A DNA stretch of 58,372 nucleotides from Lachnospiraceae bacterium (GTDB taxonomy: Bacteria; Bacillota; Clostridia; Lachnospirales; Lachnospiraceae), in the NCBI GenBank assembly GCA_017428265.1, contig JAFRRD010000013.1:1-58372 (forward strand), written 5' to 3'. Shown one piece after another: positions 8,778 to 39,128 of this stretch. The notes beneath the pieces are model-generated. The model was not told the DNA's origin, did not search any database, and saw only the letters and a list, made by a program, of their open reading frames with translations. The position numbers and the translations under genes are program-made. Within the stretch, counting starts at the first letter, position 1. Every line of letters begins with the position of its first letter.

Positions 8778-8801
8778 TCAGAACTTTTTGAGGCATAAAT
8801 A

Positions 8802-8834
8802 AGGACGCCGCTGCGGAATGCGGCGCCGTTTTTA
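8802..8834 (+). terminator. Terminator of the ABC exporter operon
   Basis: CGCCGC/GCGGCG stem with an extra G-C pair beyond an A-C mismatch and loop TGCGGAAT, followed by TTTTT. It begins 24 bases after the last stop codon. Confidence 0.75.
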
Positions 8835-9148
8835 TGTCCATTCATATTTTGTTCATATATTTCGCAAAAAACAATTACATTCTCCACACATAAACAACAC
8901 AAGGTTCCTGTATCCTATGAAGCAGATAAGAGTTTTTTCATAATCTGAGCTGAGAATCAGCTCCCTCCTTCTTCATTAATACTTTAAGGGCGGCATGCTG
9001 CTGGGACATGCCGCCCTACCTTTTTATTTGCGGATAATATCCCGAACCGTCAGTCTTCATCCCGCTCTGCCAGGCAGCAGCCTGCACAGACACGGCATTC
9101 GGACGCCCGGCATGACGGCACATGCGCCGGCAAACGCAGGCTCCGGAT
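8835..9148. other. Intergenic region with two hairpins, no gene recognised
   Basis: The left part (8838-8945) is AT-rich, unlike its surroundings. It is followed by a tight perfect hairpin, GAGCTGA-GAA-TCAGCTC (8947-8963), and a strong terminator at 8987-9025. I find no convincing ORF. The layout (AT-rich start, hairpin, terminator) would suit a small RNA of about 100-150 nt on the plus strand, but I cannot identify a promoter or a known family. The part from 9026 to 9148 shows nothing. Confidence 0.35.
8987..9025 (+). terminator. Strong intrinsic terminator in intergenic DNA
   Basis: AGGGCGGCATG and CATGCCGCCCT form a perfect 11-bp stem followed by ACCTTTTTATTT. No coding gene on the plus strand ends nearby after the operon terminator at 8802, so it either backs that one up or ends an unannotated small transcript. 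Confidence 0.75.
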
Positions 9149-9179
9149 AAAAACCGCGCATTCCTCTGCGCGGTTTTTA
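9149..9179. terminator. Bidirectional terminator downstream of TSUP gene
   Basis: AAAAACCGCGCA, loop TTCCTC, TGCGCGGTTTTT: a perfect 12-bp arm pair with A and T runs. It would end the minus-strand TSUP transcript after a 3' region of about 165 nt. That region also holds a GCGAAAATGC/GCATTTTCGC hairpin at 9190-9214. Confidence 0.85.
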
Positions 9180-9344
9180 CCGAGGTTCAGCGAAAATGCA
9201 TCCGGCATTTTCGCGGTTCACGAGGTTTCCGGAAAGCCTGCGCAAAGCCGCCGCATATCCGTGCCGTCCCGGGCGGACGTCCGCCGTGGATGGGAAGGAC
9301 TGCTGCCGGGCGGAACTGGACCGCAGACGGTGCGCCGGAACGGT

Positions 9345-24460: not shown

Positions 24461-25390
24461 TTATTTCACTCGCACGAAAGCTTCTATGTCCTCTGCGACC
24501 TGTGCCGGCATCATCCGGTGCATGGCATACAAATCATCCGGGTCTCCGGATTCTCCGAACCTGTCCCGGATACCCAGAATCAGCATGCGGGTCGGCAGGT
24601 TCTGAGACAGCACCTCCGCCACTGCGGAGCCCAGACCGCCATAAATGTTATGGTCTTCCAGTGTGACGACCCTGCCGGTCTCTGCAGCCACACGGATCAG
24701 CGTTTCGGCATCGATCGGCTTGAGCGTCGTGACGTCCACGACCTTTGCCCCGATCCCCTTCTTTTTCAGCAGTTCCGCAGTCTCCAGTGCCTTATAGGTC
24801 ATCGCGCCGGTCGTCACGATCGCGACGTCGCTCCCAAGATCTGCTAGGACATCCGCATGATTGAAGCGGAATTCATAATCGCTGCGGTGGATCTCCGGCA
24901 GCGGGCTGCGGTGTAACCTTACATAAAGCGGTGTATGGAAATCCAGCGAAAAGCGGGCCATGGAACGCGCCACTATCCCGTCGGAAGGCTGGATGATGCT
25001 CATATTCGGCAGAGAACGCATAATGCCGACATCTTCCACCGCTGTGTGGGTACCGCCGTCTTTGCCGATCTGCAGGCCGGTATGACAGCCAAGCAGCGTG
25101 ACGTCCAGATTGGGATAACAGATGAACTGCCTGATCTGTTCGCAGGAACGCATGGTCAAAAATACCGCGAAGGTTGAAACATAGACTTTCGTATCACAGC
25201 TGGCAATACCTGCCGCTGCATCCACGAGATTCTGCTCGGCGATTCCAAACATAAAAGCATGATTCGGGTTGATCCGGTCAAAAAATTCCAGGCCGCAAGA
25301 CTGCGTGTCGGGATTGCAGACAACAAAATCCTTTCGGGTCGCTGACTGTAGGATCAGCTCGTCACCAAATTCAAATCGGTCCGCTTTCAT
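24461..25390 (-). CDS. Transketolase, C-terminal subunit
   Basis: 309 residues, matching the pyrimidine-binding and C-terminal domains of transketolase. Seen are NHAFMFGIAEQNLVDAAAG (with the Glu that activates TPP), LGCHTGLQIGKDGGTHTAVEDVGIMR, and the C-terminal VVTLEDHNIYGGLGSAVAEV. It works with the N-terminal subunit encoded just upstream and overlaps it by ATGA. Split transketolases are common in Firmicutes. Because the pair leads a transporter operon rather than a pentose-phosphate cluster, it may transfer a two-carbon unit in a specialised catabolic route. Confidence 0.92.
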   Translation of the reverse strand: MKADRFEFGDELILQSATRKDFVVCNPDTQSCGLEFFDRINPNHAFMFGIAEQNLVDAAAGIASCDTKVYVSTFAVFLTMRSCEQIRQFICYPNLDVTLLGCHTGLQIGKDGGTHTAVEDVGIMRSLPNMSIIQPSDGIVARSMARFSLDFHTPLYVRLHRSPLPEIHRSDYEFRFNHADVLADLGSDVAIVTTGAMTYKALETAELLKKKGIGAKVVDVTTLKPIDAETLIRVAAETGRVVTLEDHNIYGGLGSAVAEVLSQNLPTRMLILGIRDRFGESGDPDDLYAMHRMMPAQVAEDIEAFVRVK

Positions 25391-26226
25391 GCCTTTTCTC
25401 CTTCCATGATCTCTTTGATCGCGCGGGCAGCCTCTTCTTCATTGGGGGCTTTCGAGTGCCATTGGACCTGATCCTCCATAAAGGAAACGCCCTTTCCCTT
25501 AACCGTATCCGCGAGAATGACGCTCGGTTTTCCCTTGACCTTACGGACCTTGTCCAATGCATCCAGCACGGCTTCCATATCGTTGCCGTCGATCTGCACG
25601 ACATTCCAACCGAAAGCCCGCCATTTATCGGCAAGCGGAGCAATATCAATAATCTCCGCCACGCGGCCGATCAGCTGCAGCTTGTTGCAGTCAACGAAAC
25701 CGACCAGATTGTCGACCTTCATATGGGAAGCTGCCATGGCGGCTTCCCAGACGGCACCTTCCTCCTGTTCGCCATCGCCCATCAGCACGTAGACCCGATA
25801 ATTCTTCTCATTGGCCCGGGCGGCAAGCGCCATGCCAAGACCGATTGAAAGGCCATTTCCGAGGGAACCGCTGGACATGTCCAGACCGGGCGTCTTGCGC
25901 ATATCCGGATGTCCCTGCAGAGGCGAATGGACTTTTCTGAGCGTATCCAGCACTTCGCGGCTGAAATAACCTTTTCGGCAGAGTGCAGCATACAGGATCG
26001 GGCAGCAGTGCCCTTTGGACAGGATGAATCGGTCACGGTCCGGCCATTTAGGCTGGGCAGGATCCAGTTTCATCTCACTGAAATACAACGCTGTCACGAT
26101 CTCGGCGGCGGAAAGTGAGCCGCCCACGTGTCCCGACTTTGCTCTGCTCACCATGTAAATGACGTCACGACGCAGCTCCTTTGCGATCTGCTGCAGTTCT
26201 TCCACCTTTTCAACAGATTGGCTCAT
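25387..26226 (-). CDS. Transketolase, N-terminal subunit
   Basis: 279 residues, the TPP diphosphate-binding half. SKAKSGHVGGSLS-like start (SRAKSGHVGGSLSAAEI), ILSKGHCCPILYAAL, LGNGLSIGLGMALAA, and the TPP motif GDGEQEEGAVWEA ending near VGFVDCNKLQ are visible. It is first in the operon: transketolase pair, TRAP permease, TAXI receptor, M20 hydrolase, SDR, AEC permease. AGGAG precedes the ATG. The donor and acceptor sugars cannot be read from the sequence. Catabolic split transketolases are known for apulose phosphate and for sulfosugars, which are precedents and not assignments. Confidence 0.92.
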   Translation of the reverse strand: MSQSVEKVEELQQIAKELRRDVIYMVSRAKSGHVGGSLSAAEIVTALYFSEMKLDPAQPKWPDRDRFILSKGHCCPILYAALCRKGYFSREVLDTLRKVHSPLQGHPDMRKTPGLDMSSGSLGNGLSIGLGMALAARANEKNYRVYVLMGDGEQEEGAVWEAAMAASHMKVDNLVGFVDCNKLQLIGRVAEIIDIAPLADKWRAFGWNVVQIDGNDMEAVLDALDKVRKVKGKPSVILADTVKGKGVSFMEDQVQWHSKAPNEEEAARAIKEIMEGEKA

Positions 26227-26464: not shown

Positions 26465-27106
26465 TTAATCGGCCTCATTCTGCTGCGGGCAGAACTTCTT
26501 CAAAAGCTTCTCCGCACGGTCCACATTGAAAATGCCGCATACGCAGGGCTGTGCGATCGCCACCGCGGCATCGTGGATTTTTTTGCGGCCGGCCCTGACG
26601 GCTTCGATGTTCTCCTTCACCAGATTCCGGGAAATCATACCGTGTCCGCACATCGTGATGAATTCCAGAACTTCTTCCGGCGGTAACTTTTCCGTGCGAC
26701 CGTGAATACCCAAAGAATAGTTCACGGAGTGAGGCCTGAGATCCAGATCCTTCGCCATCTCCAACACGTCCTCGTTAAGGCCGCTGATGACGACCGACAG
26801 GCCGGCGTCAAGTTCTTTAATGCGTTTGATGACTTCAAACATCTTCTCGCGGCTGTCAAAGCAGCAGCGCACACGGGGCGTGTCCCCCATCGCAGTTCGG
26901 ATTTCTTCCACCGTCGCTCCGGTGAAGATCGTTCCGGTCTCATAAGAGCCGAGATTGTCCGGTCCAACCTCCTGCACGATGTCCAGGATCTTCCAAAGCG
27001 CGTCTGCCGAGCCTTTGTTGTTGATGCCGACGGAAGGCGTTACAAGCAGAACAAAATCGTCTTTCAGGCTCTCGCATGAGCCTCTTCTGTGCAGTGAATG
27101 TGACAT
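26465..27106 (-). CDS. Module A partner: MSHxLHR/MCGH/PCxCG protein, unknown family
   Basis: 213 residues, soluble, no signal. I do not recognise a named family. Two paralogues are in this window (29071 and 33770). Features shared by all three are the N-terminal MSHxLHR, a PHSxxxSL segment (His126), TMCGHxM (Cys153-His155), and PCxCGxxN near the C terminus (Cys188, Cys190). The Cys and His positions could bind metal or a cluster, or carry a reactive thiol. This copy also has a Cys pair in RVRCCFDS (81-82). It starts three bases after the ferredoxin gene stop, with GGAGGAAT inside that gene's end, so the two are made together. This copy is closest to module C. Confidence 0.8.
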   Translation of the reverse strand: MSHSLHRRGSCESLKDDFVLLVTPSVGINNKGSADALWKILDIVQEVGPDNLGSYETGTIFTGATVEEIRTAMGDTPRVRCCFDSREKMFEVIKRIKELDAGLSVVISGLNEDVLEMAKDLDLRPHSVNYSLGIHGRTEKLPPEEVLEFITMCGHGMISRNLVKENIEAVRAGRKKIHDAAVAIAQPCVCGIFNVDRAEKLLKKFCPQQNEAD

Positions 27107-27109
27107 CGC

Positions 27110-27844
27110 TTATTCCTCCACCAGCGGTCTGCCCATGCCAAGATTGATCTTGCTATTGGGGCGGGGCTCAAGTCCAAACTTCGCCAGTTCCGGTACCTTG
27201 GGCATTTCATAAGGGTGCTCATCGTCAAAACGGCAGATCAGGTCCAGCGAGAAAACCGTATCGATCGTCTTTGCCGTCTCCATGACCGTCGCCAGCACGT
27301 CGTCAAGTTCCTCTGCCGGAATCGTGAATTCGATGATGCCGGAGATAACTCTCTGCTGCTTGGCTTCTTCCTTCAGCGTACCTTTCGCTTCGTCAAGGAA
27401 CAGAGACTTGACCGGGTTCTTCGCTTCGTATTCGATGTTGAATTTAGCGAGAGCCATCGTCATCTTTTCGACGTCAACATAGCTCGCACCGACCGACGGA
27501 CGTCCCATCTCGATTGCAATGCCGTATTCGCCTCTTTTCACACGGCCGGTCACGTCATTGGTCTTGACTTCCTCAGTGCCGCGGCCAGGAACCTTTGTTT
27601 CCGGATGATAAGCCATCGGATCACTGAAGAATTTCCGGATCGAACGCGGATACGTATAGACTCCGGGGTTCTCATATAATGCGCCGCGCGGGCACTTAAC
27701 GACGCGTTTCCTGCCGCAGGTGCCGCATTCCAGACATTTGTCCTGATCGATCACGGCCTTGCGGTCCACAATGCTGATCGCGCCTACCGGGCAATACTTG
27801 ACGCACAGTCCGCAGCCGACGCACAGTTCTTCATGAACTAACAT
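27110..27844 (-). CDS. Module A ferredoxin: double [4Fe-4S] protein with unknown C-terminal domain
   Basis: 244 residues. N-terminal 8Fe ferredoxin: first cluster Cys8, 11, 14, 18 (CVGCGLCVKYCP). The second is Cys37, 40, 43 and 51, with seven residues rather than three before the last Cys. A linker then leads to GRGTEEVKTNDVTGR (87-101), identical in all three copies. After EMGRP (112-116) comes a segment around IIEFTIPAEELDDVLATVME (170-189) that looks like an ACT/NIL-type ferredoxin fold, and the protein ends in NLGMGRP. It should pass low-potential electrons to its partner. The nearest analogy I know is the NIL-ferredoxin that works with COG1900 proteins in archaeal homocysteine synthesis; homology is not claimed. 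GGAGG precedes the ATG. Confidence 0.85.
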   Translation of the reverse strand: MLVHEELCVGCGLCVKYCPVGAISIVDRKAVIDQDKCLECGTCGRKRVVKCPRGALYENPGVYTYPRSIRKFFSDPMAYHPETKVPGRGTEEVKTNDVTGRVKRGEYGIAIEMGRPSVGASYVDVEKMTMALAKFNIEYEAKNPVKSLFLDEAKGTLKEEAKQQRVISGIIEFTIPAEELDDVLATVMETAKTIDTVFSLDLICRFDDEHPYEMPKVPELAKFGLEPRPNSKINLGMGRPLVEE

Positions 27845-27890
27845 GATCTGCCTCCATTCAAATTAGTTATCGTTTTGTACTTCAATCTTA

Positions 27891-27904
27891 TTCAGTGTAC
27901 TGAA
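27891..27904. promoter_or_regulatory. Operator-like palindrome upstream of module A
   Basis: TTCAGT-GT-ACTGAA, a perfect 6-2-6 inverted repeat. It sits between a weak minus-strand -35 (TTGTAC, 27909-27914) and -10 (TAAGAT, 27885-27890, spacer 18) that could serve module A. A second GTGTAC follows seven bases on. It may be a site for the divergently encoded LysR protein or another regulator. Confidence 0.4.
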
Positions 27905-27978
27905 ACGTGTACAACATTTTTTCGGGTGTAGTATACAAACTATTACTTGTGGCAAAGTCTTTCTTGTCAAAAAAACGC

Positions 27979-28007
27979 TTGTCAGCAATATTCTTTTGCG
28001 TTATCAT
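27979..28007 (+). promoter_or_regulatory. Promoter of LysR gene 1
   Basis: TTGTCA (27979-27984), 17 nt, TATCAT (28002-28007), 35 bases before the start codon. The same -10 and spacing occur at LysR gene 2 (39199-39227). Confidence 0.62.
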
Positions 28008-28041
28008 TGATTATAGAAACAATACCCGGTGAGGTAGCGCA

Positions 28042-28989
28042 ATGAACCTGAACAACCTGTATTACTTCGTAATCGTTGCTGAAGAAATGAATTTCACGAA
28101 AGCCGCTGAGCGGCTGTTCATTTCCCAGCAAGCTGTCAGCCTCCACATCAAAAATCTGGAAAAGGAACTGAACGTCCAGCTTTTTCAGCGCAAACCTTAT
28201 CTCATGCTGACCAAGGAAGGGAAAAATTTCTACAACATCGCGCTGAACATCCTGAAACTCCAACAGAGTTTCTACTCCGACACGGCCAGCCATCCGGTGG
28301 AAACGATTGTCGACATCACGCTGGGTATCAGCTACGGACGATCCTATATCTACGCACCGGTCCTTCTGCGGGAATTGGAAACTCATCTGCCCTGGGTAAA
28401 GCTGAACATCTCCGAGGCACCGTCCACACAATTTCTGGAGCAGAAAGTGCTGGCAGACGAAATTGACTTTTTCCTTGGCATCAGTCCCATCCACAGTACC
28501 AAGATCGAGACCATCAACCTGGACGACGAACCGCTTTTCCTGGTCGTACCAAAAAAAATGCTGACAGACGAACTGTGCCGGTACATTGCCGGAACAACCC
28601 ACCCCATCATCTCCGAAGAGTCGGGCGTCTCACTTTCCGCCTTTCCCGATGTGCCATTCGTACTTCCTTCCGTTGACAACAGATTCCGCATTGCATTCAG
28701 TCAGTATGCCTCGAACGTCGGCTTCCGTCCCAACATCCTGATGGAAAGTTCACAGCTCAATAACGGCTTCAGCATGGCACTCGACGGCGTTACAGTCACC
28801 GTGATTCCGGGAACGACTTACCGTTTTCAGCAAAAGCATACAGCCCGGGAACTCCTTGACGAAATCGTTTTCTTCGAGCTTGTCGACGTCGTCCGCAGCA
28901 AGGTCGTGCTTGCTTATAACAAAACACGTCAGCTGAATGACGTCGACAATGCATTTATCGATATCTGTCGAAAAGTAAAATTCATCTAA
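28042..28989 (+). CDS. LysR-family transcriptional regulator 1
   Basis: 315 residues. The winged helix-turn-helix spans residues 1-60 (NFTKAAERLFISQQAVSLHIKNLEKELNVQLFQR), followed by the linker helix and a substrate-binding-like effector domain (from about residue 90). LysR proteins usually activate a divergent catabolic operon when an effector is bound. Here the divergent gene pair is module A, and module B ends convergently just downstream. The effector may be the carboxylate moved by the nearby Tct or TRAP systems. GAGGTAGC precedes the ATG. Confidence 0.93.
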   Translation: MNLNNLYYFVIVAEEMNFTKAAERLFISQQAVSLHIKNLEKELNVQLFQRKPYLMLTKEGKNFYNIALNILKLQQSFYSDTASHPVETIVDITLGISYGRSYIYAPVLLRELETHLPWVKLNISEAPSTQFLEQKVLADEIDFFLGISPIHSTKIETINLDDEPLFLVVPKKMLTDELCRYIAGTTHPIISEESGVSLSAFPDVPFVLPSVDNRFRIAFSQYASNVGFRPNILMESSQLNNGFSMALDGVTVTVIPGTTYRFQQKHTARELLDEIVFFELVDVVRSKVVLAYNKTRQLNDVDNAFIDICRKVKFI

Positions 28990-29020
28990 ACTTCTTCCCG
29001 GCAGCACCGTTCACGCTGAA

Positions 29021-29060
29021 ACAGGCCCAAGGCACGGTTCGTGTCCCGGGTCTGTTTTTC
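29021..29060 (+). terminator. Terminator of LysR gene 1
   Basis: ACAGGCCC/GGGTCTGT outer stem with a GGCACG/CGTGTC inner stem and loop GTT, followed by TTTTTC. It begins 32 bases after the stop codon. Confidence 0.7.
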
Positions 29061-29070
29061 TGACGGAGCG

Positions 29071-29706
29071 TCAGTTCTGCTGTTCCTTCTCCTGCTCGAG
29101 CAGCATGGCTGCGCGGGTCTGGTTGAAGACCCCGCAGTAGCAGGGCTTCGCCAGGATCTTTGCTCCTTCTTCCGGCGTAAGCCTGCCCTCGCGAACGGCT
29201 TTACGGATGTTCCGGACCAGGCCGGCCGACAGCATGGCATGGCCGCACATGGTGGTGAAGCAGAGCGTCTCATCTTCGGGCAGCAGTTCGGTCGCACCGA
29301 AAATGCCGAGGGACAGATCGGCTGAGTGCGGTGTCAGGCCGGCTTCACGGCAGATGTCTTCCACCTTATCGCGCAGGCCGGTGACGACGACGGACATGCC
29401 GAGGTCTTCTTCCTTCAGCTGCTTAAGCACGGCAACGACTTTCTCACGGTCGTCAAAGCAGCCCATGCCGGGTGAATTGTCTTCCGTCTTGTTCAGCAGA
29501 TCTTCACGGTCAAAGCCGATGGTCAGGTTCTGCTTGGTGGTCAGCGAGCCCCAATTGACGGGCTCGTGATCCAGTGCGATCTCGATGACGCGGCGCATCT
29601 TCGGCGCGGCGCCGTCGGAATTGATCTTCATGGCCGGACGTGAAATGAAGGGGAAATCATTCTGAAAGGTCTCTTCCGGACCGAAACGGTGCAGTGTATG
29701 CGACAT
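29071..29706 (-). CDS. Module B partner: MSHxLHR/MCGH/PCxCG protein (divergent copy)
   Basis: 211 residues, paralogue of 26465 and 33770. It keeps MSHTLHR, CFDDREK, PHSADLSLGIFG, TMCGHAM and PCYCGVFN, but its N-terminal half (residues 15-80) differs strongly: INSDGAAP and EPVNWGS replace the GIN..GS and GPxNxGS of the other two. It has GCFD where A has RCCFD and C has RCVFD. It probably has a different substrate or subpathway and is not a recent duplicate. It lies 11 bases after its ferredoxin gene with AGGAGG in between, and closes the TctBAC-module B transcript. Confidence 0.8.
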   Translation of the reverse strand: MSHTLHRFGPEETFQNDFPFISRPAMKINSDGAAPKMRRVIEIALDHEPVNWGSLTTKQNLTIGFDREDLLNKTEDNSPGMGCFDDREKVVAVLKQLKEEDLGMSVVVTGLRDKVEDICREAGLTPHSADLSLGIFGATELLPEDETLCFTTMCGHAMLSAGLVRNIRKAVREGRLTPEEGAKILAKPCYCGVFNQTRAAMLLEQEKEQQN

Positions 29707-29717
29707 GTCAGTTCCTC

Positions 29718-30437
29718 CTATTCATTGCAGAACGGCTTGCCCAGGCCCACGTTGACCTTGGCGTTCTTCGGGATGTGGATGCCGAGCTTCTCCAGGACCG
29801 GAACGGCAGCAATGGTGCCGTCTTCTTCGTAGCGGACCACGAGGCCCCAGGAAAAGACTGTGTTTTTGCAGTGTTTCGCTGCATCATAGACTAACGCCGC
29901 AATTTCTTCGAAACGTTCGAACGGCACGGCAAATTCAACGATCGCCGAGAGGATCTTCTCCTCGCGGACGTCATCGCGCACACGGCCGGTCTCATCGAGC
30001 AGGGAAGTCAGCGGGTTGCAGGGTTCAAGCACGACCCCCTTCTCCACGAGCGGGATCGTCACGACCTCAACTTCCTTGACCTTGGTGCCGATGGACGGAC
30101 GGCCGAACTCGAGGGCGAAACCGATCTCCCCGCGTTTCACGCGGCCGGTCACGTCGTTGGTCTTGACTTCCTCGGTACCTCTGCCGCGTACGCCGGTGCT
30201 CTGATGCTTCTCGGTAGGATCGCCGAAGACCTTGCGCACACTGCGCGGCCATTCGTTTACTTCCGGCGGTTCATAGAACGCCTTGCGGGGGCATTCGATC
30301 TGACGGACACAGATGCCGCACTCGACACAGGCATCCTGATCGATGAAGGCTTTCCTGTTTTCGACATGAATGGCGCCCTGCGGGCAGAACGGAAGGCACT
30401 TTCCGCAGCCGACGCACAATTCCTGATTAACTTTCAT
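29718..30437 (-). CDS. Module B ferredoxin: double [4Fe-4S] protein with unknown C-terminal domain
   Basis: 239 residues. The first cluster motif CVGCGKCLPFCP is regular. In the second (CVECGICVRQIECP) five residues precede the last Cys, compared with seven in copies A and C. GRGTEEVKTNDVTGR is intact, followed by EFGRPSIG, a CNPLTSLLDE segment, the AIVEFAVPFERFEEI region and NVGLGKP at the end. I started at MKVNQELC (30437), which has GGGAGAAT upstream and aligns with the other copies. A ten-residue in-frame extension lacks a ribosome site. It follows the TctC gene by about 110 bases and a perfect hairpin. Confidence 0.85.
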   Translation of the reverse strand: MKVNQELCVGCGKCLPFCPQGAIHVENRKAFIDQDACVECGICVRQIECPRKAFYEPPEVNEWPRSVRKVFGDPTEKHQSTGVRGRGTEEVKTNDVTGRVKRGEIGFALEFGRPSIGTKVKEVEVVTIPLVEKGVVLEPCNPLTSLLDETGRVRDDVREEKILSAIVEFAVPFERFEEIAALVYDAAKHCKNTVFSWGLVVRYEEDGTIAAVPVLEKLGIHIPKNAKVNVGLGKPFCNE

Positions 30438-30473
30438 ACTTTCATTCTCCCAAATGGATTCAGGCAAAATGTT

Positions 30474-30500
30474 GGGATCCGAGTTATCCGCTCGGATCCC
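30474..30500 (-). repeat. Perfect hairpin between tctC and module B
   Basis: GGGATCCGAG, loop TTATCCG, CTCGGATCCC: a 10-bp perfect stem. No U-tract follows on the minus strand. A smaller GCCCG/CGGGC hairpin lies at 30514-30528. It may stabilise the upstream receptor mRNA or limit read-through into module B. Confidence 0.6.
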
Positions 30501-30550
30501 GTTTGGTTTCAGGGCCCGTTATGCGGGCTGTCATTATCTCAGAAGAATGA

Positions 30551-31618
30551 TCAATCCTTCGGAACCATGGCCAGGTAGGTCGTGTAGTCAGCCTTCACGT
30601 CCGCGGCATAGGCAGTCCATTCCTGGTAGCCCATGAAAGCGTCAGCCATAGCGTTTTCCTTCACGAAAACCTTCCAGTCTTCGGTCTCGGTGACCTTCTG
30701 GAACAGGCCGGAGTAGTACGCAAGGACTTCATCCTTCACACCGGGGTTCATGACGATACCGCGGTTCTGCTGGTGGTCAAGCTTGTAGCCCTGTTCCACG
30801 GCGGTAGGCAGATCCGGGAAATCGGCAAGGCGGTTGTCGGCGATGGCAGCGATGGTGCTCATGGTGCCGTTCTTCATGTGTTCGATGGACTCCGCAAGGG
30901 AGGAGGAGCACAGGTCGATGTGTCCGCCAAGCACGGCAGCGGTCAGCAGGCCCTGATCGTCGTAAGGGACGTAGGTCAGGTCGATGCCGGCAAGGGTATT
31001 CAGGGTGTACATCAGGATAGCATCGTCGGAAGCATTGCCGACGCCGCCCCACTTCAGTTCGCCGGGATGTTCTTTCGCATATTTCACGATGTCATCCAGG
31101 TTCTTGAAATCCCATTTCTTGGAGCAGCAGATAACGCTGGGGTCCTTCACCAGGTGAGCAACGAAGGAGAAGTCGCTGGTGTCGGGGTTAAACGGGGAGT
31201 TGCCGGTAATGGGCTGAGTGAAGAACGAAGCGGAGGTGGAGGCCAGCGCGTACTCATAACCGGCCTTGTAATCCTTCAGGTAGGTATAGCCGACCACACC
31301 GGAGCCGCCCTTCTTGTTGACCGGAACCACGTTCACAGGGCAGAGTTTGTACTTCTCGATGATCTCGACCATCTTACGGACCATGATGTCGTTGCCGCCG
31401 CCGGCACCGAAAGGAATGACGAATTCGACGTCCTTGGTGGGGACCCAGCCGGCAGCTTCCGTGGTCTGGGCTTCACTCTGAGCCTGGGTCTGACCCTGAG
31501 CCTCAGTGGTCTTGGGAGCATCGGTAGCCGCCGGAGTGGTTTTGGCCGGTTCGCTGCCGCAGGCCGCCATGGACAGCACCATAAGCGCAGTGAGCAGTAA
31601 TGCGATGAGTTTCTTCAT
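30551..31618 (-). CDS. tctC: Tripartite tricarboxylate transporter receptor (TctC/Bug family)
   Basis: 355 residues. Lipoprotein signal with Cys at residue 20 (LSMAAC), a Thr/Gln/Ala-rich linker to about residue 58, then a Bug-type binding domain. Family stretches are VEFVIPFGAGGGNDIMVRKM, VNKKGGSGVVGYTYLKD, GGVGNASDDAILMYTL, and VPYDDQGLLTAAVLGGHIDL. It captures a carboxylate outside the cell for TctA/TctB. The gene order is tctB-tctA-tctC, then module B. The ligand cannot be read. The CoA-transferase and carboxyltransferase next door suggest a mono- or dicarboxylate. Confidence 0.93.
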   Translation of the reverse strand: MKKLIALLLTALMVLSMAACGSEPAKTTPAATDAPKTTEAQGQTQAQSEAQTTEAAGWVPTKDVEFVIPFGAGGGNDIMVRKMVEIIEKYKLCPVNVVPVNKKGGSGVVGYTYLKDYKAGYEYALASTSASFFTQPITGNSPFNPDTSDFSFVAHLVKDPSVICCSKKWDFKNLDDIVKYAKEHPGELKWGGVGNASDDAILMYTLNTLAGIDLTYVPYDDQGLLTAAVLGGHIDLCSSSLAESIEHMKNGTMSTIAAIADNRLADFPDLPTAVEQGYKLDHQQNRGIVMNPGVKDEVLAYYSGLFQKVTETEDWKVFVKENAMADAFMGYQEWTAYAADVKADYTTYLAMVPKD

Positions 31619-31703
31619 TGTTCTTTTCCTTCCTTTTTTGTTTTTTGCATTGTTTTGTTATCTCAGCCGGCTTGCTGCCGGACTTATTCATTTTTCCGAG
31701 TCT

Positions 31704-33212
31704 TTATTCTGCTTTTGCTTTGTTCTTCTTCAGCTTTGCGAAGAGGTTCTTGATAGGCGTGCCGAAAGCCAGCAGGATTGCGATCACGAGAATCACTGCG
31801 GAGATCGGATGCGTCAGGACCTTGAAGAAGTTGTTGTTGTCAATGATGAGTGCCTGACGGAGGTTAGTCTCGGTAATGGCACCCAGAACGAGAGCCAGGA
31901 CCATGGGAGCCGCAGGTACTTTCAGCTTCTTCAGGAAGTAACCGAGGATGCCGAAGAACAGCGTGACACCGACGGTGAACATCGAGTTCTCAAGGGCATA
32001 GGCGCCGATCAGGATGAAGGCAAAGATCAGGGCATTCATCGTGGTCGTCTTGACGTTCAGGATCTTGACGAACATCCGCAGCGCACCGAGGCCGAGCAGG
32101 ACCAGAAGGACGTTGCCCAGATACATGGAAGCGACAAGGCCCCAGGCCACTTCGGCATTCTTGATGAAGAAGGACGGACCGGGGGAAATGCCGAGCATCA
32201 TCAGTGCGCCCATCATGATGGCCGTCGCGCCGGAACCGGGCACACCCAGCGTCAGCATAGGCACCATGGCCCCCATGGAAGCAGCGTTGTTCGCACATTC
32301 GGGAGCGGCAACGCCTTCCACGGCACCCTGACCGAATTCTTCCTTGTTTTTGGAGGTCCGCTTCGCCATGTCATAGGATAGGAACGAGGCGATCGTGGCG
32401 CCCGCGCCGGGCAGCATGCCGACGATGAAACCGAGGATCGTACCGCGGCCGATGTGCGGAATCGTCCGCTTCCATTCCTCCTTGTTCGGCAGGAGTTTCT
32501 TGAGCTTCAGCGAATCCTTGTCGACCTGGATGTTGTTATCTTCGAAGTTGCAGATGATCTCCGCAATACCGAAGAGGCCCATGGCCACCGGCACGAAGTC
32601 GATGCCGGAATACAGGTTGACGTTGCCGAATACGAACTTCGGCGTACCGAAGACCAGGTCGATGCCGATGCCGGCAACGAACAGCCCCAGGAAAGCCGCC
32701 AGGAAGCCCTTGGCCGGAGACTTGCCGGTCATGCCGGCGACGGAGGTCAGTCCCAGGATCATCAGGGCAAAATATTCGGACGGGCCAAAGGAAGTGGCAA
32801 AGTTGGAGATGACCGGAGCTAAGGTCATGAACAGCACGACAGAAATGGTACCGCCGATAACGGAAGCGAGACATGCCATGCCGAGCGCCTTGCCGGCTTT
32901 ACCTTTCCGGGCCAGAGGATAACCGTCCAGCGTAGTCATGATCGCAGCCGAGTCACCGGGCGTATTGATCAGGATGGCGGTAATGGAACCGCCGTACATG
33001 GCGCCGTAGTAGATGCCGCAGAGCATGCACAGCGCACAGGCGGGAGACAGGCCGTAGCACAGGGGCAGCAGCACCGCAATGCCAACGGAGGGGCCGAGGC
33101 CGGGCAGCGCACCGATGATGACGCCGGAAACGACACCGACGAGGGAGTAGACGATGACCATGGGGTCAGCCAGGATCGAGAATCCGAGGCCTAAATTCTG
33201 AAACAGATTCAT
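31704..33212 (-). CDS. tctA: Tripartite tricarboxylate transporter large permease TctA
   Basis: 502 residues, the usual size. About twelve hydrophobic segments. TctA hallmarks include the glycine-rich GALPGLGPSVGIAVLLPL in the first half and its repeat GFIVGMLPGAGATIASFLSY in the second, plus YGGSITAILINTPGDSAA and GVPGSGATAIMMGAL. It is the ion-coupled channel of the system. AGGAGGTAC precedes the start. It lies 12 bases after tctB. The 85-base gap to tctC holds a small CCGGC hairpin. Confidence 0.95.
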   Translation of the reverse strand: MNLFQNLGLGFSILADPMVIVYSLVGVVSGVIIGALPGLGPSVGIAVLLPLCYGLSPACALCMLCGIYYGAMYGGSITAILINTPGDSAAIMTTLDGYPLARKGKAGKALGMACLASVIGGTISVVLFMTLAPVISNFATSFGPSEYFALMILGLTSVAGMTGKSPAKGFLAAFLGLFVAGIGIDLVFGTPKFVFGNVNLYSGIDFVPVAMGLFGIAEIICNFEDNNIQVDKDSLKLKKLLPNKEEWKRTIPHIGRGTILGFIVGMLPGAGATIASFLSYDMAKRTSKNKEEFGQGAVEGVAAPECANNAASMGAMVPMLTLGVPGSGATAIMMGALMMLGISPGPSFFIKNAEVAWGLVASMYLGNVLLVLLGLGALRMFVKILNVKTTTMNALIFAFILIGAYALENSMFTVGVTLFFGILGYFLKKLKVPAAPMVLALVLGAITETNLRQALIIDNNNFFKVLTHPISAVILVIAILLAFGTPIKNLFAKLKKNKAKAE

Positions 33213-33224
33213 CGCGTACCTCCT

Positions 33225-33725
33225 TTAAAACCCGAGCGGTCCCTTGGGGATCGGAACCTTCAGGAATACGACAAAGATCAGGTAGAGGATACCGGTCATC
33301 GCGATGCCGACGATGATTGCTTTCCACCATTTTTCCTTCCCTTGGAAGATCAGGTAAACGATTACGGAAAGGCACAGGCAGATCAGCATGCCCAGATACT
33401 TGGACACCATCAGGACGAACACGCCGAGCAGCAGGAAACACAGCAGGTTCTTCAGTTCTCTCGGATTCAGGATCTTCGTTTCCTGCTCCGCCTTGACGGT
33501 CTCATCGGTTTTTGCTTTTTTGCTCGCCGCAAAAGTTTCGACAAACAGCAGCGCCCCGAAGAAGATGATCGCGATCCCGCAGATGGTCGGGAAGAAGCCG
33601 GGGCCCATCATGCTCCTCTTGATCATCGGCAGATCCTGAACTTTGACCAGGACCAGGATGACGATGCCGACGATCACTGACACAGCTGCCAGGATCAGGT
33701 CACCGGTTTTTGCTTTCAGTTTCAT
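33225..33725 (-). CDS. tctB: Tripartite tricarboxylate transporter small permease TctB
   Basis: 166 residues with four hydrophobic segments (about residues 10-25, 42-60, 92-110, 118-160). The GPGFFPTICGIAIIFFGALLF stretch is typical of TctB (DUF1468) proteins. A charged loop (AASKKAKTDETVKAEQETK) separates the halves. It complements TctA. It is transcribed after module C, which ends 45 bases upstream, so module C, the transporter and module B probably share one transcript. Confidence 0.9.
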   Translation of the reverse strand: MKLKAKTGDLILAAVSVIVGIVILVLVKVQDLPMIKRSMMGPGFFPTICGIAIIFFGALLFVETFAASKKAKTDETVKAEQETKILNPRELKNLLCFLLLGVFVLMVSKYLGMLICLCLSVIVYLIFQGKEKWWKAIIVGIAMTGILYLIFVVFLKVPIPKGPLGF

Positions 33726-33769
33726 AAGCTTTTTCCTTCCTTCTTATTCGTTTATGCACTGTTAGCCTT

Positions 33770-34405
33770 TTAGTGTTTTTCCGCGGGCACGTATTTCTGC
33801 AGCATGGGGATCGCCCGGGTCGGATTGTAGAAACCGCAGACGCAGGGGCTTCCCATACGGACGGCCGCCTGTTCCGGCGTGAGCCTTCCGGCTTTCACCT
33901 TCTCGATGCAGTCGACTACCAGAGAACGGGAGATCATGCCGTGTCCGCACATGGTGATGAATTCCAGGATCTCTTCCTCGGGGAGTTCGTTCTTTTTGCC
34001 CCAGATGTCCAGAGACAGGTTGACCGAATGCGGCTTGATGCCGAACTCCGCGCAGATCTTTTCGATCTCGAGACGCGGACCGGACACAGTTACGGAAATG
34101 CCCAGGTCCATCTCCAGCAGGCGGCGGATCACCTCCCGCATCTTGTCAGCGCTGTCAAAGACGCAGCGCACGCGGGGGATCTCGGTGAACCCGGCTTTGA
34201 TCTCTTCGATACTCACGCCCGAAAGGATCGTGCCGACTTCGTTCGAACCGGTATTGACCGGGCCGACTTCCCAGACGACGTCCAGGACCCTGCGGAGCTT
34301 GTCCTTGCTGCCGGCGGCGTTGATGCCCGCAGCAGCGGTCACGAGTAAAATATAGTCATGGCTTAAGGATTCGGCAGTGCCTCTCCTGTGCAGTGAATGA
34401 GACAT
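33770..34405 (-). CDS. Module C partner: MSHxLHR/MCGH/PCxCG protein
   Basis: 211 residues, paralogue of 26465 (close) and 29071 (distant). MSHSLHRRG, GIN..GS, VGPVNTGSNEVGTIL, RVRCVFDS, KPHSVNLSLDIWG, FITMCGHGMISRSLV and SPCVCGFYN are all present. The C-terminal domain also keeps the GRLTPEQAA helix seen in module B as GRLTPEEGA. It is soluble with no signal peptide. The strict pairing with a ferredoxin suggests a two-subunit oxidoreductase or a cluster- or thiol-dependent enzyme; function unknown. It starts three bases after its ferredoxin gene and is the link to the tct genes downstream. Confidence 0.8.
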   Translation of the reverse strand: MSHSLHRRGTAESLSHDYILLVTAAAGINAAGSKDKLRRVLDVVWEVGPVNTGSNEVGTILSGVSIEEIKAGFTEIPRVRCVFDSADKMREVIRRLLEMDLGISVTVSGPRLEIEKICAEFGIKPHSVNLSLDIWGKKNELPEEEILEFITMCGHGMISRSLVVDCIEKVKAGRLTPEQAAVRMGSPCVCGFYNPTRAIPMLQKYVPAEKH

Positions 34406-34408
34406 GTC

Positions 34409-35161
34409 TTAGTCCTGCCTTTCGATCTTGTACGGGCGGCCGACGCCGAGATTGACCTTGCAGTTGTCGCGGACCGAAATCCCCAGGCTCCTGCAGAGCT
34501 CCAGACCGGGCAGTGTGCCGTCTTCGTCATAGCAGGTGATCATATCCAGGGAGAAAACCGTGTCGATCTCAGCCGCAATGTCACGGATGACGTTCAGAAT
34601 CTCCTCGCCGCGTTCGAAGGGGATACGGAATTCGATGATGGCGCTCACGAAACGCTCATCCAGATATTCCTCCCTGAACTTGCCGGTCGTGATGTCCTCG
34701 ATCAGGTCCGTCAGCGGATTGCAGTCTTCCAGCACGATGCCGCACCTGGCGAGGTGCATGGTCGCCTTCTCGATTTCACGGACCGAAGTTCCCAAAGCCG
34801 GGCGGCCCATTTCCAGACAGAGCCCCAGCTCACCGCGGCACACGCGGCCGGTCACGTCGTTCGTCTTGACCTCTTCCGTTCCGCGTCCCGGAACACCCGT
34901 ACGCGGATGTGCCGTCGAGGGATCGGAGAAGAAGCGCCGCATCTGGCGGCCCATGGACCGCTCTTCCTTCGGCAGTTCATAGATCGCACCGCGCGGGCAT
35001 TTCACCACGCGTGAGCGGATGCAGGTCCCGCATTCCAGACAGGCATCCTGATCGATCTCAGCCTTGCGTTTTCCGTCAACTGTTACCAGACGGATCGCGT
35101 CAGCAGGGCAATAAACGGTACAGATCCCGCAGCCGATGCATTTTTCCTGATCAACAACCAT
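34409..35161 (-). CDS. Module C ferredoxin: double [4Fe-4S] protein with unknown C-terminal domain
   Basis: 250 residues. First cluster CIGCGICTVYCP; second CLECGTCIRSRVVKCP with the widened seven-residue gap, as in module A. A four-residue insertion (VTVDGKRK region) lies between the clusters. GRGTEEVKTNDVTGR, EMGRPALG, CNPLTDLIED, AIIEFRIPFERGEEIL and NLGVGRP are shared with the other copies. It is the first gene behind the best regulated-looking promoter of this block (35214-35262). A GAGGAAAAGGAAA purine run precedes the ATG. Confidence 0.86.
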   Translation of the reverse strand: MVVDQEKCIGCGICTVYCPADAIRLVTVDGKRKAEIDQDACLECGTCIRSRVVKCPRGAIYELPKEERSMGRQMRRFFSDPSTAHPRTGVPGRGTEEVKTNDVTGRVCRGELGLCLEMGRPALGTSVREIEKATMHLARCGIVLEDCNPLTDLIEDITTGKFREEYLDERFVSAIIEFRIPFERGEEILNVIRDIAAEIDTVFSLDMITCYDEDGTLPGLELCRSLGISVRDNCKVNLGVGRPYKIERQD

Positions 35162-35301: not shown

Positions 35302-36309
35302 TCAGGCTTCACCCATCTTCCGTGCGAGGCTGAAGGCATGTTCCCAGGCGCCGCTGTTTACTTTTCCTGTCCCGGCAATCTCATATGCTGTTCCGTGCGC
35401 ACACGTGGTTGCCGGTTTCGGCAGACCGCCGTACGCCGAGACCGCTGCATCAAAGCCGTGCAGCTTCATGGCGATCTGTCCCTGGTCGTGATACATGGTC
35501 ACGGCACCGTCGAACTCCCCGCCAAAAACCCGGAAAAACAGCGTATCCGCGGAAAAAGGACCAAACAGATCCAGGCCTTCCTCCTTTCCCCGCTCCACTG
35601 CCGGTGCAATGGTCTCGATTTCCTCTCTTCCGCAGGTGCCGCCTTCGCCGTTGTGCGGATTGAGTCCTGCGACTGCAATACGAGGCTTCTCATATCCGGC
35701 CTGACGCATGGTTTCATCGAGCATCCGCGCTGCGCGCAGGATCCCATCGACAGTCAGCGACGCTCCCACATCCCGCAGCGGGATATGTCCGGTCACCCGT
35801 GCCGTCCAGACTCTGTCCAGCACGTTCATTTCCATATGGAAGCCGCTGCTGCCGTAAAAATGCGCCAGCAGGTCTACCGCGCCGCTTAAGTGAAAACCGG
35901 CAAGCTTCATCGCCGCTTTATTATTCGGTGCAAAGCAGATGGCGTCAAAATAACCGTCCTTGCAAGCTTCCACACAGGCTTTCATATTCAATGCCGCATC
36001 GCGTCCCAGCGCCGGATCAACCGCGGCATAGGCAAAACTGTCGGCGTCCAGGGCGCCGGTATCCACGAGGACCAGGCCGCGGTGTTTCATCGCCTCCTGT
36101 ACGGAGGAAACGCAGATATACGGAATATCTTCCCCGACAGCCCGCATGCCCCGCCTGAGTTGCCTTTCGTCACCGATCAGGACCGCGCGGACATCGTCAT
36201 CGAAGCCGCCGTGGAGGGCGGCTTTGACAATGAGCTCCGCACCGACGCCGGACGCGTCGCCCATGGTGATTCCGACTGTGCAGATTCGGGGACCATACGG
36301 CTGCTGCAT
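35302..36309 (-). CDS. pdxA: PdxA-family dehydrogenase (4-hydroxythreonine-4-phosphate dehydrogenase-like)
   Basis: 335 residues. NAD-dependent, metal-dependent oxidative decarboxylase family. Motifs: GITMGDASGVGAEL (GDPAGIGPE in classical PdxA), APNNKAAMK, TGHIPLRDV with a metal His, AGLNPHNGEGGTCGREE, GPFSADTLF, MYHDQGQIAMK and AHGTAYEIAGTG. The vitamin B6 enzyme and the catabolic PdxA2 group (D-threonate or D-erythronate 4-phosphate) share these. The absence of other pdx genes, and the CoA-transferase and carboxyltransferase neighbours, favour a catabolic role. No DUF1537-type sugar-acid kinase is seen, so the phosphorylated substrate of PdxA2 systems is not assured. GGAGGGC precedes the ATG. 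Confidence 0.88.
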   Translation of the reverse strand: MQQPYGPRICTVGITMGDASGVGAELIVKAALHGGFDDDVRAVLIGDERQLRRGMRAVGEDIPYICVSSVQEAMKHRGLVLVDTGALDADSFAYAAVDPALGRDAALNMKACVEACKDGYFDAICFAPNNKAAMKLAGFHLSGAVDLLAHFYGSSGFHMEMNVLDRVWTARVTGHIPLRDVGASLTVDGILRAARMLDETMRQAGYEKPRIAVAGLNPHNGEGGTCGREEIETIAPAVERGKEEGLDLFGPFSADTLFFRVFGGEFDGAVTMYHDQGQIAMKLHGFDAAVSAYGGLPKPATTCAHGTAYEIAGTGKVNSGAWEHAFSLARKMGEA

Positions 36310-36333: not shown

Positions 36334-37557
36334 TTATTTCGCTTTCTTCGCTTCCTTCAGTGCCTTCAGGAAATCCGCCTGCTCCTGCAGCAGAGCATCG
36401 ATCTCCTCGTCAGTCATATGTGCGTAATCCCGGAAGATCTCGCGGTTGTTCTCACCCAGCATAGGGGCCGGTTCATAGGTCGTATCCGGATAAGAAGCCA
36501 TCTTGATGGGGCTGCCGGGCATTTTGTACTTGCCGGCGACCTTGTGATCGACTTCCACCAGCATCTGGCGGGCAGCGATCTGCGGATCGGCGCAGATCAT
36601 TTTCATGGTATTGATGCGGCCGTAGGGCACACCGCCTGCCGCCAGGATCTCTTCATTCTCGTCGATCGTATGCTCACGGGTAAACTTCGAAAGCTCCTCC
36701 GTCAGCTCATCGCGGTGCAGTCGGCGGGCATCCGGATCGTTGAAACGCGGATCCTGCATCATATCTTCGCGGTGGATCGTACGGCAGAGGTTTTCAAAAG
36801 CTGCATTTCTCGAGCAGGTGATGATGATCTCGCCGTCCTTGGCGGGGAAGGTGCCAAAAGGCGCATTGACCGGATGCGTATTGCCCACGCGCTGCGGATT
36901 CTCACCGGTCACGCAGGTATTGATGACGGCATTTTCCAGGCAGGAAAACGCGGAATCCAGCATCGCGATATCGATGAACTGTCCCTTGCCCGTCTTCTCG
37001 CGGTCATAAAGCGCCGCGGAAACTGCACCGAAGCTGTAGATCCCGGTGAAAATATCGCTGACGGAAGTCCCGCAGCGGGTCGCACCGCCCTTGGGATCGC
37101 CGGTCAGGCTCATGAGGCCGCTCATCCCCTGGATCACCATGTCCAGCGCGCCGCGGTCCCTGTACGGACCGGTATAGCCAAAGCCCGAAATCGCCATGAA
37201 AATGATGCGGGGATTGACTTCCTTGATCACGTCATAGCCAAGACCCATGCGTTCCATGGTGCCGGGCTTGAAATTTTCCACGAGAACGTCAGCATTCCGC
37301 ACCATTTCCAGCAGAACTTTTTTATCCCGCTCTTCTTTCAGATTCAGAGTGCAGCTCTTCTTGCTGCGCATGATGGAAAGGTCATAGGTGCGTTCACCGC
37401 CCAGGTAGGGGCCGCTGGCCTTCGGACGGTCGGGACGCTCCACCTTGATGACGTCAGCTCCCATATCTGCCATGATCATCGTGGCGAACGGGCCGGATAA
37501 AAACTGCGTTAAGTCAATTACTGTTACACCGCTGAGCGGACCATATCCTTTTGCCAT
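36334..37557 (-). CDS. Class III CoA-transferase (CaiB/Frc family)
   Basis: 407 residues. Moves CoA from an acyl-CoA donor to a carboxylate. Recognisable are the N-terminal GVTVIDLTQFLSGPFATMIMA, ADVIKVERP, VLVENFKPGTMERMGLGYD, YGRINTMKMICADPQ, and the catalytic Asp in TSVSDIFTGIYSF (equivalent to Asp169 of formyl-CoA transferase). It should activate the imported acid as a CoA thioester. It lies 14 bases after the carboxyltransferase gene and 24 before pdxA. A Lys-rich C terminus is unremarkable. The substrate is unknown. Confidence 0.93.
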   Translation of the reverse strand: MAKGYGPLSGVTVIDLTQFLSGPFATMIMADMGADVIKVERPDRPKASGPYLGGERTYDLSIMRSKKSCTLNLKEERDKKVLLEMVRNADVLVENFKPGTMERMGLGYDVIKEVNPRIIFMAISGFGYTGPYRDRGALDMVIQGMSGLMSLTGDPKGGATRCGTSVSDIFTGIYSFGAVSAALYDREKTGKGQFIDIAMLDSAFSCLENAVINTCVTGENPQRVGNTHPVNAPFGTFPAKDGEIIITCSRNAAFENLCRTIHREDMMQDPRFNDPDARRLHRDELTEELSKFTREHTIDENEEILAAGGVPYGRINTMKMICADPQIAARQMLVEVDHKVAGKYKMPGSPIKMASYPDTTYEPAPMLGENNREIFRDYAHMTDEEIDALLQEQADFLKALKEAKKAK

Positions 37558-37571
37558 AGCTGCATTCTCCC

Positions 37572-39128
<1,557 letters not shown>

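Follow-up and report, generated by a model that had tools for sequence, protein, structure and literature searches.

The window analysed here, a 58,372-nucleotide contig of a Lachnospiraceae bacterium, carries three copies of a two-gene unit in which a gene for a double-[4Fe-4S] ferredoxin with a C-terminal extension (protein A) is closely followed by a gene for a second protein of 211-213 residues (protein B). We found that this A/B pair is real, that it occurs across several phyla and that it has no family in the libraries searched; narrow literature searches also returned no description of it. We give an even chance to the reading that A and B are two paired parts of an uncharacterised oxidoreductase with which anaerobes catabolise imported (hydroxy)carboxylic acids. 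The initial annotation of this DNA had proposed a two-subunit redox enzyme whose copies act on different acids or steps, and overall its interpretation was partly supported.

All six genes lie on the minus strand with A before B, and the three pairs were confirmed at the positions and with the gaps first annotated, namely 3, 11 and 3 bases in pairs 1, 2 and 3. In pair 1, A (27110..27844, 244 residues, 2[4Fe-4S] ferredoxin plus C-terminal domain) is followed by B (26465..27106, 213 residues). The second A gene (29718..30437) encodes 239 residues from its ATG, or 249 if an upstream TTG at 30467 is used, and its partner B (29071..29706) encodes 211 residues. In pair 3, the A protein of 250 residues (34409..35161), again a 2[4Fe-4S] ferredoxin with an unrecognised C-terminal domain, precedes a B protein of 211 residues without known family (33770..34405). 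When compared with copy 3, B was 53% identical in copy 1 and 40% in copy 2, and A was 52% identical in copy 1 and 52-53% in copy 2. A fourth pair was found in the window's own genome, on contig C42.

To follow the pair beyond the window, relatives were collected from one scan of genome contigs, which yielded 39 distinct loci. Their recorded taxa were Bacillota, Syntrophales and other Deltaproteobacteria, Synergistaceae, Nitrospiraceae, Chloroflexi and Aminicenantes, with no archaeon among them. When these loci were taken together with further regions of the same genomes (the first set), an A gene was present just upstream, i.e., on the same strand and within 400 bases, of 71 of the 73 full-length B genes. 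The set comprised 79 B matches, from which six partial ones were omitted (L038, the second of L028, L089, one each of L090 and L091, and L043). The distance from A to B ranged from a 20-base overlap to 322 bases, a 4-base overlap being the commonest arrangement (18/71). The two exceptions were L031, in which only 288 bases of contig remain ahead of B, and L094, in which the order is reversed. In a separate, even draw of genomes from the window's phylum, B was matched in 26 of 398 genomes, a count that includes the window's own, and a single genome held as many as eight matches (one of these partial). Of the 51 B genes outside the own genome, 47 full-length ones were fetched, a partial B (L137) being dropped, and 46 of the 47 had A just upstream; the remaining one, L135, showed the reverse order. 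The two sets may partly overlap, as G683 repeats the match coordinates of the genome of L029. An A gene without a nearby B was never seen among 76 matches in the first set and only twice among 49 in the phylum draw, both times as a fragment. The strict pairing initially annotated therefore proved near-strict, and the two genes are not usually apart. Because the same pairing was obtained in 39 loci spanning several phyla and in a separate genome draw, it goes beyond chance. Within the window's class, B was matched in 5 of 391 genomes (the window's own among them), so that the pair has a patchy distribution close to the window.

The two partners also proved to have evolved together. The distance matrices of A and B correlated with r 0.81, and when partners were swapped within multi-pair genomes or loci, the mean r dropped to 0.40 (standard deviation 0.06), none of 2000 swaps reaching the observed value. 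The loss of correlation on swapping indicates that a given B is usually retained with its own A partner. On the tree, the three window B copies were placed in different supported clades, each of them shared with B proteins of other genera; they thus represent distinct, old paralogues, as opposed to a recent triplication. The tree came from a rapid search in which several joins were flagged for long branches, and the near-copies L024 and L091 were left out of it.

Two arrangements departed from this pattern. L094:2751-4084 and L135:6896-7732 were the only loci seen with B before A, and their B proteins were sister rows on the tree (99% support). In L089, a solo B-like gene (8785-9327, 180 residues) lies without an A gene between the CooS-like and FNOR genes of an operon that also includes CooF, and matches with similar limits were obtained in two other genomes of that family.

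In protein A, the ferredoxin part was readily recognised. PF00037 matched the window A proteins with 49.2, 41.1 and 45.5 bits against a cut-off of 21.1, covering two stretches in each, and the eight ferredoxin cysteines were invariant across 49 aligned rows, the final gap of the second motif varying in length. The last ~180 residues, which contain the motifs GRGTEExKTN and GRP, had no convincing match in Pfam, NCBIfam or the PDB sequences (best PDB E no better than 0.019), and it is this part that sets A apart from the 2[4Fe-4S] ferredoxin domains of HdrA, NfnB and oxalate oxidoreductase. The AlphaFold2 model of A copy 3 had a mean predicted local distance difference test score (pLDDT) of 88.8; the fold search of A effectively covered residues 1-90. 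In L011 and L013, both from Syntrophales genomes, A forms the C-terminal part of a fusion protein of 708-709 residues, whose front part in L011, for which the domains were checked, matched an NADPH-dependent GltD-like flavoprotein and Fer4_20. Two candidate assignments were discarded: matches to mercury methylation ferredoxin and similar NCBIfam entries covered the ferredoxin motif alone, and an hhalign comparison of the A C-terminal domain with B (probability 9.6%, E 0.0033, 74 columns) was not taken as homology.

Protein B was likewise without a credible family in Pfam, NCBIfam or the PDB sequences, its best PDB E also being no better than 0.019. A profile match to a characterised family had been named in the initial annotation as the finding that would overturn its interpretation, and none that was credible appeared for B or for the C-terminal domain of A. 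Pfam listed 0, 3 and 0 families for the three window B proteins. Searches of PHROGs gave weak matches only (best E 0.00075, in one member), the best E in a viral structure search was 0.047, and a plasmid search with copy 3 returned no match. The motifs MSHxLHR, PHS, TMCGH and PCxCG were present in all three window copies, in agreement with the initial annotation, which had given the third as MCGH. Across 120 sequences, near-copies included, C153, G154, H155, C188, C190 and N194 were kept without exception, and H3, H6 and H126 were conserved in 116, 118 and 118 of them, respectively. The AlphaFold2 model of copy 3 had a mean pLDDT of 91.6, and its N-terminal half showed a beta-alpha-beta-beta-alpha-beta layout.

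Methanogenesis marker 8 appeared as a candidate for B in one of 48 proteins each for TIGR03275 (E 0.0099) and PF09872 (E 0.054). It was not recovered when 10 proteins (8 from A3) were searched again, and families unrelated to it reached similar scores; it was therefore treated as a chance match. SHOCT-like matches (8/48, best E 0.00039) fell, in the protein inspected, on one short stretch at residues 167-187 and were rejected. In two related genomes, the B genes L090:230-649 and L091:2663-3082 end at the same point before TMCGH, each with a full-length A alongside.

The genes around the pairs were then considered. In the phylum draw, TctA was found within 6 kb of 33 of the 52 B genes, against 0.99 expected from TctA density. 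The linkage to tct genes suggested initially was thus borne out, and redox genes were linked as well. In 18 of 47 pairs, B was directly followed by TctC, and 38 of 47 had, within 7 kb on the same strand, a CooS-like/FNOR module or an importer gene of the Tct, TRAP or Opp type. Seen from the importer side, 28 of the 90 TctA genes in the same genomes were near a pair, which suggests that only some Tct systems are served by it. The frequent position of A/B beside importers of small organic acids points to an undescribed enzyme type in the food breakdown of anaerobes.

Many of the neighbours were named by BLAST to clusters that had themselves been named by eye, with Pfam or NCBIfam confirmation for part of them. 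The neighbour Pfam scan covered 134 of 230 proteins; importer and CooF/CooS/FNOR clusters, very long or short proteins and two more for size were omitted. Among the 25 of 111 Pfam families listed, the commoner ones included ABC transporter ATPases, GntR/FCD regulators, DUF1932/NAD_binding_2, Carboxyl_trans, Ldh_2, DctM, DHDPS, Oxidored_FMN, M20 peptidases, CoA_transf_3 and PdxA. A malate-racemase-like LarA in L026 and a galactarate-dehydratase-like protein in L037 stand beside pairs, both scoring under the equivalog cut-offs, and a domain-confirmed aldehyde ferredoxin oxidoreductase (AOR) lies near the pair of L145. The theme of the neighbourhood is hydroxy- and polycarboxylic acids. An AOR-like gene, a small CooF-like protein gene and a 3-hydroxyisobutyrate-dehydrogenase-like gene were observed next to the pairs in L145, L146 and L153, with the AOR domain checked in L145 only.

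A new observation here is that 20 pair-bearing loci contain a gene for a short CO-dehydrogenase-like (CooS-like) protein, mostly together with genes for a CooF-like protein and an NAD(P)H oxidoreductase. The full set, with a CooF-like polyferredoxin and an FNOR-type oxidoreductase, was present in 16, and three of the four loci without it were cut by contig ends. The single FNOR scanned was PadH/NirB-like. These loci share the CooF-like, CooS-like and FNOR genes with CO dehydrogenase/CooF/FNOR operons and differ from them by the low scores of the three CooS-like proteins scanned, by the missing C-cluster ligands in 12 of 20 aligned sequences and by the two extra genes A and B. Complete CooS-like proteins had about 404-521 residues, and on the three that were scanned TIGR01702 scored 84.2, 61.8 and 145.3 bits, under the cut-off of 478 for a Ni-CO dehydrogenase. 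On the tree, 14 of 18 module-labelled rows fell in one 20-row clade; L086, L134 and L136 formed a second group. The window genome itself had no CooS match, so such an electron wire would be optional.

In order to see which metal sites were retained, the CooS-like residues were mapped by alignment onto solved CO dehydrogenases, using 20 sequences that include the solo-B locus L089 and exclude L086. The six C-cluster ligands of CO dehydrogenase are H261, C295, C333, C446, C476 and C526. The four cluster-B cysteines were kept in 18 of the 18 sequences covering them (19 aligned). All six C-cluster ligands were found in three of 20 sequences (L010, L012 and L015) and four or five of the C-cluster cysteines in five more (L032, L039, L040, L134 and L136); in the other 12, the aligned columns contained none of H261, C333, C446, C476 and C526. 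Within this degenerate group, four sequences keep a cysteine within three columns of C295, and L016 is cut by a contig end. A cysteine of their own shortly before the lost C446 and, mostly, before the lost C476 was seen in L022, L024, L030, L089, L104, L140 and L141, and these residues could be a rearranged site. L022:7677-9221, L030:1214-2701, L140 and L141, among others, keep the cluster-B cysteines with no C-cluster ligand at the aligned columns. Annotation by name would label the degenerate proteins as CO dehydrogenases, and genome surveys could mistake a CooS-like gene with cluster B and few CO-site ligands for a sign of CO metabolism. Our interpretation is that the CO dehydrogenase was recruited here to relay electrons.

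In the proposed oxidoreductase, A would conduct electrons through its two [4Fe-4S] clusters. Its exchange partner would be soluble ferredoxin; some operons would use NAD(P)H instead, by way of the CooF-like protein, the flavoprotein and the CO-dehydrogenase-like scaffold serving as a wire. B would house the reaction site, a putative metal or Fe-S centre formed from the invariant C153, C188 and C190 and assisted by the conserved histidines H3, H6, H126 and H155, and paralogous pairs may serve different acids or different steps. Pairing, co-evolution, residue conservation, gene neighbourhood and the fusion of A to an NAD(P)H-type flavoprotein are established by the data; that A and B would form a physical complex, with catalytic activity and a bound metal, we infer. 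Electrons may flow either way, the substrate receiving them from NAD(P)H or ferredoxin or giving them up. The pair is classed as a ferredoxin-linked oxidoreductase because of its presumed mode of action, although its two proteins fall into no known family. A wider form of the proposal is that A/B is a new enzyme class without a described family, performing ferredoxin- or NAD(P)H-driven carboxylic acid chemistry at a Cys/His metal centre, and that it captured a CO dehydrogenase/CooF/FNOR electron line, whose CO dehydrogenase in many lineages then lost most of its nickel-site ligands and remained as a wire through cluster B. This we regard as possible and somewhat short of probable.

As to the chemistry of B, a working analogy is offered by IspH and IspG, which are three-Cys Fe-S reductases fed by ferredoxin. 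B resembles them in its three invariant cysteines and its ferredoxin partner, and a reductive dehydroxylation would be conceivable; however, its spacing of C-x34-C-x-C is its own, and no match to the IspH or IspG family profiles was listed for the window B proteins. Reductive removal of a hydroxyl or saturation of a C=C bond at an open-iron Fe-S centre, as carried out by IspH or IspG, is the likeliest chemistry that we can propose for B, but our confidence in it is low.

Several observations weigh against an oxidoreductase for imported acids. The 62 of 90 TctA genes without a nearby pair indicate that Tct-fed catabolism in general can proceed without it, and nine of 47 pairs had no named importer or electron module within 7 kb on the same strand. 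The surrounding enzymes are too varied for a single substrate or reaction to follow from them. The solo B-like gene of L089 suggests, moreover, that B may sometimes work without A.

Four other explanations were weighed against this proposal. The closest to it takes A/B as an oxidative dehydrogenase, passing electrons from the acid to ferredoxin or, via the CooS-like wire, CooF and FNOR, to NAD(P)+. Genes of a catabolic operon would normally be expected to yield electrons, and the passages of two papers that treat CO dehydrogenase/CooF/FNOR contexts connect an FNOR beside CO dehydrogenase with CO oxidation, with NAD(P)+ reduction in one (PMC11338639) and as a possible involvement in the other (PMC6344411); A/B is not described in these passages of either. 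The anatomy is nevertheless the same as in the oxidoreductase favoured above, direction alone differs, and the reductive direction is equally compatible. We consider an oxidative role unlikely. A role of A/B in redox sensing or in regulating the adjacent importer or operon, instead of catalysis, is held to be quite unlikely; here the N-terminal half of B would be a PII/ACT-like ferredoxin fold, with A reporting the redox state, and the layout of that half may resemble that of the PII-like SbtB.

A further alternative makes A/B a maturation or reactivation factor that gives electrons or metal to nearby oxygen-sensitive dehydratases or other Fe-S enzymes. Proteins of the IlvD, LeuCD and UxaA/galactarate-dehydratase types do occur in some loci, several of them named by eye or by cluster, but no such dehydratase family was among the 25 of 111 Pfam families listed for the 134 scanned neighbours, and L009 and L035 show little besides importer and pair. 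Paralogues in the same genome also keep their own partners, unlike a general helper, and the idea is distinctly improbable. Finally, the initial annotation had offered the NIL-ferredoxin/COG1900 pair of methanogens as a loose precedent, and a sulfur-transfer pair of that kind would share with A/B the general plan alone, a ferredoxin with an extra domain beside a second protein, with no domain match to either among those listed. NIL was absent from the matches listed for the three A proteins of the window and from the 16 families (E <=1) of 49 A C-terminal domains; a COG1900-type family was likewise listed neither for the window B proteins nor among the 25 of 32 weak families given for 48 B proteins. 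With no archaeon recorded for the 39 loci either, this precedent was not upheld, and we judge a sulfur-transfer role most improbable. If A/B is an enzyme, it would supply a function for many anaerobic carboxylate operons. B was found in 26 of 398 genomes of the window's phylum and in loci of several other phyla, and yet neither protein is named in the searched libraries.

In the window, the gene order along the minus strand is the MmdA-like carboxyltransferase, the CoA-transferase, PdxA, A3-B3, TctB, TctA, TctC and A2-B2, followed by a LysR gene on the opposite strand, A1-B1, two transketolase halves and TRAP-like and TAXI-like genes. Pfam matches confirmed the LysR and TctCAB genes as flanked by copies of the pair, and the PdxA, CoA-transferase and carboxyltransferase genes beyond pair 3, all of which had been initially annotated. 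The importer consists of a TctC-type substrate-binding protein (30551..31618, minus strand; PF03401, E 4e-27), a TctA-type subunit (31704..33212, minus; PF01970 match at C5:31896-33152) and a TctB-type subunit (33225..33725, minus; PF07331, E 3.7e-21), and the LysR-type regulator between pairs 1 and 2 (28042..28989, plus strand) matched PF00126 and PF03466. Upstream of pair 3, all on the minus strand, are a PdxA-family dehydrogenase (35302..36309; PF04166, E 1.1e-81, under the NCBIfam equivalog cut-offs), a family III CoA-transferase (36334..37557; PF02515, E 2.9e-118) and a biotin-type, MmdA-like carboxyltransferase (37572..39128; PF01039, with TIGR01117 at 743.6 bits against a cut-off of 998.8). 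The TRAP genes that had been placed on the other side were recovered beyond pair 1 as TRAP-like genes accompanied by TAXI-like ones; their position stood, and their names, like that of the N-terminal transketolase half, were assigned by eye. The split transketolase itself lies directly after pair 1, at 24461-26226 of the window, and its C-terminal half was confirmed by domain.

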